From Chrysophaeum taylorii (taxonomy: Eukaryota > Sar > Pelagophyceae > Pelagomonadales > Pelagomonadaceae), in assembly GCA_029834535.1 (NCBI GenBank), contig JAQMWT010000309.1, positions 612,761-676,760 of the forward strand: 64,000 nt of DNA, read 5' to 3'. This document shows, piece by piece, positions 283 to 10,326 of the stretch; positions within the stretch are counted from its first letter, which is position 1; the number at the start of each line of letters is the position of its first letter. Both the position numbers and the translations under genes were made by a program. The notes below the pieces were generated by a model, which was not told the origin of the DNA, did not search any database, and was given only the letters and a program-made list of their open reading frames with translations.

Positions 283-3200
283 ATGTTGTGTTTCCCTTGC
301 TGCAGACGCGCTCGGACGTCGAAGGTTGTCATCAGGGCCCGGAACGCTCGCGAAGACATCGTCGAGGCCGTTCTCGCAGCCTCGCGCATGATCGCGACCG
401 AGGGCCTCGGCGAGAACCAGCGCGCGCACGGCTTTTTGTTCATCATCGGCAACTCGGAAGAGCTCCTCGCTCCGGATCCCGACCTCACGTACGCGGAAAC
501 AGAATCCTCCGTTCACTCCAAGTATGGATTCTTCCCCAAGGACCTCGACCGCCGTGACAGTACCGAGATTCTTATCCAAGACTGCTGCCAGAGCGACGCC
601 AAGAAGCGGGCCTTGCAAACGCTCTGCGGCCGCGACAACGCGATTGTCGTCGACGGCACCACGGGCCGGGTCTGCTGCGGGGGGTTCGCGAACCGCGATA
701 TCACGACACCCTACGGCACGGGCTCGCGCACCAGAGCGGCCTCGTCGATCGCTGTCAAGGCGAATTGCGTCACTATCAAAGCCTCGCAAGACATCTGCGG
801 CACGCGTGCGAACCCGATTTTTTTGGACGCGCACTTCGAAGTGTTCCGAGGAAAGTATGATCCCGATAAAGTCCCTGTCGTCGTCGCGGAGACGCCGAGC
901 GCGATGAGCGACGAAGCAACTCCTTGGTCCTTCGGGTCGTGTTTGCTTGCTATTCAGAGGCACGTCGTTGCGATCAAACGGCTCGAGGCGTCGCACCGAT
1001 GCGCGCTGCGACCACATTTGCATAGAAAGTACGGCACGGACGAGTACGCCAAAGTTCGTGCGAAGATTACCGAGTTTGAGGACCTGACTGACGATGAGAC
1101 GGTGCGCTTCTACGTCGACGAACGCCGGGTGGAAGAATTCAGGGATTTGGAAACCGGTTTCGAGGAGTTTTGCCGGGGATTGCCGACGGTTTATCCAGTG
1201 GCGGCCGTACTTTCAGTTGAAAACGAGGCAATCGCCGACACGCGCATCCCGCTTCTTATGAGAACGTTCAAAGAGCGCGATGTCGCCACTTATTTTCATC
1301 CCGAGCTGGAACTCGTCGAGTTTGTGAGGGGCGTGGGACCGCGGATTTTGATCTTCGTCGGGTGTCCGCTCGATGGTGTTCGATGCTTTGATGAAGAGTG
1401 GCGTCTTTGCTACTTTTGCTCGAGTGCGCAAGGGAGCGACAACATGCTCGAGTTTGATCAGGACAATCTCGTCGAATTCGTGAGATCCGTGCAGCCAGAA
1501 TGTGTGCTTCTCCTCGCACATAACTCAATCGAACTCGTCGCGAATTTGTCACCAGAGAGACTGGCCGAACCAATCCGTCTGATTGTGTGGAAAGGGAGGA
1601 TGAACCGAAGATCAGCATCCAAATTTGTGGATACTTTTATCCACAAGTTCCTTGCGAATTTCTCGGACGACGGGCTGGATTGTATTCAGTCGTCTTATCT
1701 TCGAGGCATGCAAAAGGTTACACTCGATCCTGGTACGAAGCCGTCGATCAAGTTGCTGCCTGACACTCAAGTGGTAACGGACCGCCTTGGGACGAGCGTG
1801 CCCGACGAAATACTTATTCGCCTCAAAGATCTCGATTTGCTCTCTTCGGAAGTCGCTACGGCAATAAGAGATACGTATGTTCCTCAGATAGTCGCCCTCT
1901 TGCGTGCTGATCGGGAAAAATTTCAACTTCCGTATACTGCGATGATACGAATTGCAGGCAGAATTGACGATAGTAATGTCAATAAGGTCAAAATACTTCT
2001 TGATGATCTTAAAGCATTGCGAGTCGATTTTGAATTCACGACGTCTGGATCGATCGTGTATCATTGTGTTGTTTCCGACAACGTCGAAGACTTTCGAGGA
2101 TGGGGGCAACAGGTCGCGGCAAATTTAGCAGAAAAGCAGACCATCCGGATCGCTGAGTTGGCATTGACGGGTGTCATCGTGAAGACGGCTGATCTCCAAT
2201 TTTTGAGAGACGAATTCCCCGCCGAGTGCGCCGAGGCGGTACATAATTATCAACGCTCGGATGTTCTTGGCGAAAAGTTGCTTTCTTTATTATTGCAACC
2301 CACGCAGGATCTGACAATAGACGCGATAAATGACGTCGCTGCTCGATGTGAAGAGCAATTGAAAGCTACCACGCACGCAACAATGTTGGACGTCGGGCCC
2401 CAAAAAAATCGAGGGGACCAAACTTCTGAGTTTGGTTTCTCTTCGAATTTCGAGAACGACAAACCTGCGCAGCGCGAGGAAGGCGTTACCACGATCCTTG
2501 AGGCCGCGCACACCGAAGGTGTCGGGGAGAAGAAATCCGATGCCTTTGCTCTCGCCGCCCGGCCGTCGTCTACCCAGCATGCGGCAGCCGAGGCCAAACG
2601 GAGGCACCAAGGCCAGATCGCGCGCGTGCAGCACGGACGATGCGACCCTAAGCAGCGCGAGAAGGTTGAGCGAGTTAACGCTGCCGTCGACAGCGAGCTC
2701 GACATCATCACGACCATCTTGACGATTGGAAAGGCGATTCCCCTCGTCGGAGGGATATGCGGCGTGGCCAAGGAGATCCTAGAGGATGTGCGAAAAAACA
2801 CGGACAAGGCGGATGACGTGGTACGGGCTGGTTGCCGCGTCCTCGACGTCCTCGAGTTTCTCCGACTCCTCCAACGTCGCGTCGACGAGTTATCCCCTGA
2901 ACCAACGCCCGAGGTGCGCGAGGCGATGAAAGACATCACGCAGTTGCTCGAGGAATTCAAGACGGCCGTTCAAAAATTCGGCAAGCCCGGCTTCTTTAAA
3001 CGATTTTGGCGGCTGCGCAAGTACGCGGGGGCGCTCTCGCGCCTCGACGAGAAGATGCGCAACAAGCTCGATTTTCTGACGAAGGCGTACGGCGTTGCGA
3101 GAGATGCGCGCGTCGAGGGCTTGCTGCGAGCTATTCCGTACAAGCTTGAGGAGGCGCTCAAGAAGTATGTCGACGAGCGCCACGACAACGACCAAATGGC

Positions 3201-10326: not shown

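Follow-up and report, generated by a model that had tools for sequence, protein, structure and literature searches.

We analyzed a 64,000-nucleotide stretch of the genome of the pelagophyte alga Chrysophaeum taylorii (hereafter the window), which covers positions 612761-676760 of contig C309 in a 70.8 Mb assembly of 697 contigs (passages of the genome paper, PMC10366177). Close to its start lies a long open reading frame that an original prediction, made from the letters alone, had interpreted as a single-polypeptide system carrying nucleotide-cyclase-like, HeLo, pseudokinase, NACHT and ankyrin modules. The single frame was borne out: it opens with an ATG at 283, closes with a stop codon at 10324-10326 and contains zero internal stops. 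The nearest upstream in-frame stop lies at 103, and the ATG at 283 is the first thereafter. Profile searches, which the prediction had called for, were run with Pfam on the whole protein and on pieces of it, and most of the module calls survived, those of kinase and ankyrins with certainty. What the single-system view missed is that homology switches from one gene family to another at residues ~784-798; by sequence comparison the gene is a chimera of two C. taylorii families, designated A and B. The features identified are as follows.

283..10326, + strand: whole open reading frame, 3,347 amino acids plus stop, by frame read-through.
340..852, + strand: family A domain resembling diadenylate cyclases (DAC), residues 20-190, with the motifs DNA and RTRAA, not DGA and RHRAA; recognized via a paralogue on contig C418 and motif alignment.
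853..2352, + strand: conserved stretch of family A with no assigned fold, residues 191-690, by paralogue alignment and selection.
2353..2634, + strand: family A linker, ~residues 691-784, 37-53% identical to the C575, C454, C600 and C324 copies.
2632..2640, + strand: A/B junction, placed by eye at residues 784-786; in BLAST, family A matches reach 796-798 and the closest family B matches start at 786.
2638..3162, + strand: family B four-helix bundle (4HB) of MLKL/HeLo type, residues 786-960, with Pfam MLKL_N (PF22215) at 825-950.
3163..3552, + strand: family B region between the 4HB and the first ankyrins, residues 961-1090, alignable to siblings.
3553..3972, + strand: first ankyrin block, ~residues 1091-1230, between 4HB and kinase, found by Pfam here and in siblings.
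4321..5313, + strand: protein kinase domain, residues 1347-1677, HxD Asp retained, DFG Asp lost (GFG); Pfam E 8.3e-27.
5389..5568, + strand: tetratricopeptide repeats (TPR), residues 1703-1762; Pfam E 1.7e-4, under cut-off.
5971..6345, + strand: NACHT nucleoside triphosphatase (NTPase) domain, residues 1897-2021, P-loop GDTGSGKG, Walker B LCLDGLDE; Pfam.
8065..10308, + strand: C-terminal ankyrin array of 22 units, residues 2595-3342, by repeat analysis.

The two-family structure emerged when residues 1-2340 were set against 48 loci of the genome, of which three belong to the window itself, and residues 1-1100 against a further nine stretches. Residues 1 to ~784 correspond to family A, whose layout is a DAC-like domain plus an unnamed region, with leucine-rich repeats (LRRs) at the end of the public models P0002 and P0003. 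The relatives on C454, C575 and C600 are 67-75% identical to the window over most of residues 20-690. From ~786 onward the relatives belong to family B (C529, C534, C324, C538, C27, C73 and others), with the layout 4HB-Ank-kinase-TPR-NACHT-Ank. Family B siblings carry their start Met just upstream of the junction, where the window has family A sequence instead; between residues 650 and 900 it has Met only at 701 and 882. In three public models of family B (P0005, P0007 and P0125) the protein starts with the bundle, which makes the DAC part an addition. When the upstream DNA of six family B loci (3.0-4.6 kb each) was searched at E 1e-3, a family A match was found only in C324 and none in C534, C529, C27, C73 or C538. 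DAC and 4HB share one frame only in C309, among at least 21 DAC and at least 33 bundle places in the genome.

The C324 locus represents a second A-B fusion with a different breakpoint, in a 3,017-codon frame (L049, L024 and L031). Its N-terminus (L049:1831-4500) is MBF2-like over the Pfam cut-off and PNP-like under it. There follow a family A middle region 28-30% identical to that of the window, LRRs, and family B sequence from ~residue 997 without the bundle. A tree was built from nine genes of family B, of which one was partial. In it, the window grouped with the unfused C529 gene (support 100/99) and C324 with the unfused C534 gene (99/99); the other four forks were unresolved. Because both fused genes have an unfused gene as their partner in the tree, A-B fusion probably occurred twice. 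Two losses from an older fusion would also fit the tree, and two gains are favored since the breakpoints of the window and C324 differ.

Both parts of the gene are evolving as protein. The ratio of nonsynonymous to synonymous substitution (dN/dS) between the window and its paralogues was 0.21-0.77 in every segment with finite dS, all within residues 20-2340; the saturated C324 comparisons yielded no ratio. Values below 1 also covered residues 405-600, which are largely spliced out in P0002 and P0003. Purifying selection therefore acts on both halves over residues 20-2340, maintaining them as protein, a result that cannot date the fusion. It also led us to reject a random open frame, and an ordinary ankyrin gene was rejected because kinase, NACHT and 4HB were detected. 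We noted separately that the public models of C454 (P0002) and C575 (P0003) splice out a conserved family A coding stretch under purifying selection, so that public exon calls at these genes are unsafe.

The HeLo/4HB block named in the original prediction was upheld. PF22215, with a cut-off of 27 bits, scored 28.4 bits on the isolated piece and 29.5 bits (E 2.1e-5) in a genome scan. Genome-wide, this profile matched 21 places with E values of 1 or less; the window's bundle is one of those over the cut-off, and seven of the 21 coincide with the at least 33 places found by a search with that bundle. Strong MLKL_N loci occur on C565, C25, C359 and C309. Among 14 aligned bundle relatives, eight matched MLKL_N with E of 1 or less, the best at 1.2e-6. 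A profile search of the PDB returned nine weak matches, two of which were MLKL chains (E 0.17 and 0.84). The adjoining residues 961-1090 may play a brace-like role. A PADLOC match of the 4HB piece to PbeC (E 0.0031) was taken as chance. The bundle has also been shuffled into other architectures, two of which deserve mention. One public model, P0126 (C324, CTAYLR_006524), joins Roc, COR, CHAT and bundle, all four Pfam matches being under their cut-offs; its CHAT-like domain has His and Cys motifs, a possible protease-plus-executioner chain. The other, L022:433-2466, is a frame of 678 residues with Met-Gly-Ser-Cys-Cys-Cys near its start, in which a bundle relative and a tyrosine-kinase-like domain form a simple MLKL-like layout.

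In the kinase-like domain, the HxD Asp was retained in all eight copies aligned there. The DFG site reads GFG in the window, C27 and C73, and NFG in C538 and C437; it is intact in C529, C324, C534 and C207. The earlier label of pseudokinase thus fits this copy and, in total, five of the nine family B copies read, but not the four that retain DFG. An NCBIfam match of the TPR region to T3SS_chap_SctY (E 2.4e-4) was taken as a generic TPR match, and NCBIfam searches with the window pieces gave nothing near a cut-off. For NACHT, the Pfam cut-off is 26.7 bits. The domain scored 21.7 bits in the full-length protein, 24.8 as a piece, and 26.1 in the genome scan when taken alone; together with its frame neighbors it scored 29.2, the only setting in which it passes. 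Sibling domains scored 35.8 (C27), 32 (C324) and 29.5 (C534). With this score and its Walker B motif, the predicted NACHT domain holds. PADLOC matches of the NACHT piece to PtuA (E 0.012) and of P0004 to GajB (E 0.018) were taken as chance.

The long C-terminal ankyrin array was likewise found as predicted, whereas the first ankyrin block had been left out of the earlier list. Units of the C-terminal array are spaced at exactly 34 amino acids (102 nt), with a pairwise DNA identity of 63-100% (mean 84%). We examined seven unit positions equivalent to those randomized in designed ankyrin repeats. The ratio of nonsynonymous to synonymous variation among units (pN/pS) was 1.42 at these positions vs. 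0.53 elsewhere (21 units), and 30 of 20,000 randomly drawn seven-position sets were equally variable. An earlier test, with positions picked after viewing the variation, gave 2.01 vs. 0.46. Nine sibling loci were scanned for ankyrin units, and six had at least four. At the seven positions, three of these six gave ratios above 1 (1.19, 1.46 and 1.98) and three below 1 (0.77, 0.86 and 0.94), and in all six the ratio exceeded that of the rest of the unit. Differences between the units of the C-terminal ankyrin array thus cluster on its presumed binding face.

The family A front end was connected to diadenylate cyclases through its relatives. Alone, the window piece scored 12.6 bits (E 0.1) against PF02457. 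This profile was matched by six of eight copies with E of 1 or less, 0.0084 being the best value; other families matched at most one copy each. The divergent C418 copy, 41% identical to the window domain (E 4.6e-25), exceeds the PF02457 cut-off with 31 bits genome-wide, and with 30.2 bits (E 3.7e-7) over profile positions 40-107 of 119 (~68 positions); its NCBIfam DisA match (E 1.8e-5) is far under the family cut-off. C418 retains DGA and RHRAA at the sites where the window has DNA and RTRAA. DGA and RHR are the catalytic motifs of the DAC domain. A profile comparison that included C418 aligned these motifs with bacterial CdaA at a score of 26.4, which none of 300 shuffled profiles reached; when C418 was omitted, 24 of 200 shuffles reached the score, and the result was not significant. 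These comparisons suggest that the front end is DAC-derived and probably non-catalytic, the window's motifs making an inactive cyclase probable. The proposed DAC-like N-terminus stands indirectly, by way of C418, and the word cyclase was an overstatement for a domain with degraded motifs. An NCBIfam DacZ match of the DAC piece (E 0.032) was judged too weak, and PDB profile matches of the DAC and middle regions were weak only and taken as unrelated. No DAC relatives were confirmed among 101 pattern matches in bacterial contigs and 57 in viral contigs. Within C. taylorii, at least five DAC matches adjoin a NACHT match (C396, C165, two in C454, and C599), three of them reading as one frame, and in P0004 the DAC-like domain stands directly before NACHT, followed by WD40 repeats. 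A strong PF02457 match at C301:23500-23850 (L058) falls in a CdaA-like gene that shares 92% identity with one from a Cytophagaceae bacterium, and C301 was judged to be a bacterial contaminant contig of Cytophagales type. The middle region, residues 191-690, had no Pfam match with E of 5 or less. When residues 253-500 were considered as a CHAT fold with a His-Cys dyad, residues 405-459 bore a weak and tentative likeness to the C-terminal part of the CHAT protease domain, at the expected place (six of 200 shuffles were equally good) and without the Cys motif.

Taking the modules together, we tentatively propose that the gene encodes an all-in-one receptor and executioner resembling NOD-like receptors (NLRs), built by in-frame fusion of the two families. 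The most plausible role, as in the original prediction, is that of an intracellular sensor coupled to an effector that would act on membranes. The C-terminal ankyrin array would bind a variable ligand, upon which the NACHT switch would oligomerize the protein. The kinase-like domain would hold and then release the 4HB, as the MLKL pseudokinase does, and the clustered bundles would insert into or permeabilize a membrane, killing the infected or stressed cell. The DAC-like module, unlikely to make c-di-AMP, may bind a nucleotide or a partner and gate the 4HB, whose N-terminus it covers.

Several observations weigh against this proposal. In the full-length scan MLKL_N reached 24.1 bits (825-950), under its cut-off, so that the match is near threshold. 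The top PDB profile match of the 4HB was an unrelated envelope glycoprotein (E 0.13). A single-sequence structure prediction of residues 1-1086 had a mean pLDDT of 36.9 and a pTM of 0.26 and was not used. The P-loop, GSGKG, is without the usual Ser/Thr, reading GKG in eight of nine family B copies and GKT in C437. Public protein searches, all length-limited and two of them scoring the best 8,000 candidates by shared words, showed no model of the frame 283-10326 among the matches listed. Outside C. taylorii the same searches listed ankyrin proteins only; given those limits, this is weak evidence for absence from other species. Other contrary points concern the bundle itself. It is internal here (786-960), as opposed to N-terminal in MLKL, in HeLo proteins and in the public family B models. 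Its relatives, identified by similarity to the window, are also joined to a tyrosine-kinase-like domain (L021, L022 and L025) or to FG-GAP repeats (L026-L028). With such partners and an internal position, the 4HB may instead be a dimerizing or docking adaptor, a role the bundle may also have in receptor-like and kinase proteins of C. taylorii, and the protein a signaling scaffold without membrane attack. The L021, L022 and L025 bundles had no MLKL_N match at E 0.5, and those of L026 and L028 matched below the cut-off only. However, MLKL_N is the only curated family that was reached over a cut-off. Moreover, passages of PMC12881547 and PMC9815663 describe the MLKL 4HB as perforating membranes and related HeLo domains as common in fungal NLRs. 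We consider an adaptor somewhat unlikely.

The fusion itself could be recent and possibly non-functional, with family B sequence having landed in a family A gene, or having been joined to it by the assembly, and the open frame not yet decayed. The single DAC-4HB frame among the DAC and bundle places listed would fit, as would the last ankyrin unit, which slips out of register with the array ahead of the stop codon (window 10269-10326), a further point against a working receptor. Broken relatives with stop codons also occur (C207, C358, C551 and C366:176825). On the other hand, the join is in frame and at a domain edge, the gene lies ~54 kb from the contig end, and tblastn found no leftover family A LRR in the window. 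C324 supplies a second fusion, and dN/dS is below 1 in both halves, a value that gives no fusion date. We regard a recent, non-functional fusion as unlikely. Less probable still is that two proteins are made in vivo, the family A part ending by splicing near 2,630 and family B being transcribed separately. Family A does splice to LRR exons in P0002 and P0003, and P0006, the public model for the fused C324 gene, begins within the frame of that gene and omits the PNP-like portion along with most of the family A portion, which also counts against a single fused product. Yet the same tblastn search found no family A LRR in the window; family B has no start codon of its own; the join has no spacer; and the exon calls of P0002 and P0003, which also remove conserved coding sequence, are unsafe. 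An active diadenylate cyclase in the DAC-like domain, with c-di-AMP as a product of the protein, is highly improbable: although paralogue C418 keeps DGA and RHRAA, RHR is kept in none and DGA in one of the eight sequences formed by the window and its seven closer copies.

The proposed receptor-executioner shares parts with several known systems. Its order of 4HB followed by a kinase-like domain with broken DFG, and its MLKL_N match over the cut-off as a piece and genome-wide, recall MLKL, which is not known to have NACHT or ankyrins. It differs from MLKL in the ~390 ankyrin-containing residues that lie between bundle and kinase, and in that four of nine copies read keep DFG.

According to passages of PMC12881547, MLKL is triggered by RIPK3, and fungal NLRs with an N-terminal HeLo/4HB are known. 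Fungal NACHT NLRs of HeLo and HeLo-like type unite a membrane-acting helical bundle, NACHT and ankyrins at the C-terminus in a single chain (passages of PMC12881547 and PMC12258605), and these all-in-one receptors are the nearest working model (PMC12881547, in part). In contrast, bundle and NACHT of the C. taylorii protein are kept apart by a kinase, TPR and a further block of ankyrins, and a DAC-like module stands ahead of the bundle. Pkinase, CHAT and PNP_UDP_1 are known as N-terminal NLR domains (passages of PMC9815663). Fungal NLRs of these types likewise set nucleotide-type or kinase modules before NACHT, and the C324 sibling's PNP-like N-terminus, under the Pfam cut-off, is reminiscent of the PNP_UDP_1 class. 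DAC is absent from the 19 N-terminal Pfam profiles in the consulted part of PMC9815663. Bacterial diadenylate cyclases (CdaA and DisA; PF02457) resemble the window domain through the motif alignment via C418 and differ from it in that its catalytic motifs are degraded and it is fused to eukaryotic-type NLR modules. In brown algae, ROCO and NB-ARC-TPR proteins are also putative stramenopile immune receptors diversified by repeat shuffling (passages of PMC11378527); they use another NTPase and other repeats, and in C. taylorii the shuffling joins parts of whole gene families. The claim of novelty accordingly needs narrowing: combining several modules, and having DAC at all, is unusual, but HeLo, Pkinase, CHAT and PNP_UDP_1 N-termini of NLRs were already known (PMC12881547 and PMC9815663, in part). 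Among the titles and abstract openings listed in searches of open-licence PMC literature, we found no DAC-containing NLR and no 4HB-kinase-NACHT protein. PMC13092281 contains both "diadenylate cyclase" and "NACHT", but its subject, in the portion consulted, is prokaryotic defense.

If expressed as one protein, the gene would unite sensor, switch, kinase-like latch and membrane executioner in a single chain, and direct driving of an MLKL-type bundle by an NLR would become testable. The gene also brings DAC-like domains into eukaryotic NLR-like architectures, DAC adjoining NACHT at no fewer than five places of this genome, and it shows that receptors diversify through fusion of parts from whole gene families in a lineage for which little on immunity was found. 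A broader, improbable generalization is that C. taylorii combines necroptosis-type execution and NLR sensing in one polypeptide and exchanges DAC-like, PNP-like and CHAT-type front ends by repeated in-frame fusion to NACHT/4HB cores. Were this so, a membrane-killing 4HB would be gated by nucleotide-derived signals inside one polypeptide, making it the eukaryotic equivalent of bacterial defense systems that rely on nucleotide signals.

Downstream of the gene, the window contains several further elements. Immediately 3' of it, at 10988-16839, a unit of ~1 kb is repeated in tandem about six times; compared stretches of the unit are 60-100% identical, and one stretch of 125 nt is 95-100% identical in all six. 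A tandem repeat of 254 nt lies at 18858-19665, its three register copies being 100% identical. At 19947-20399 there is a decayed NACHT-family fragment, of the same family as the gene, which contains stop codons, and at 22968-25979 an open frame with RCC1 repeats.

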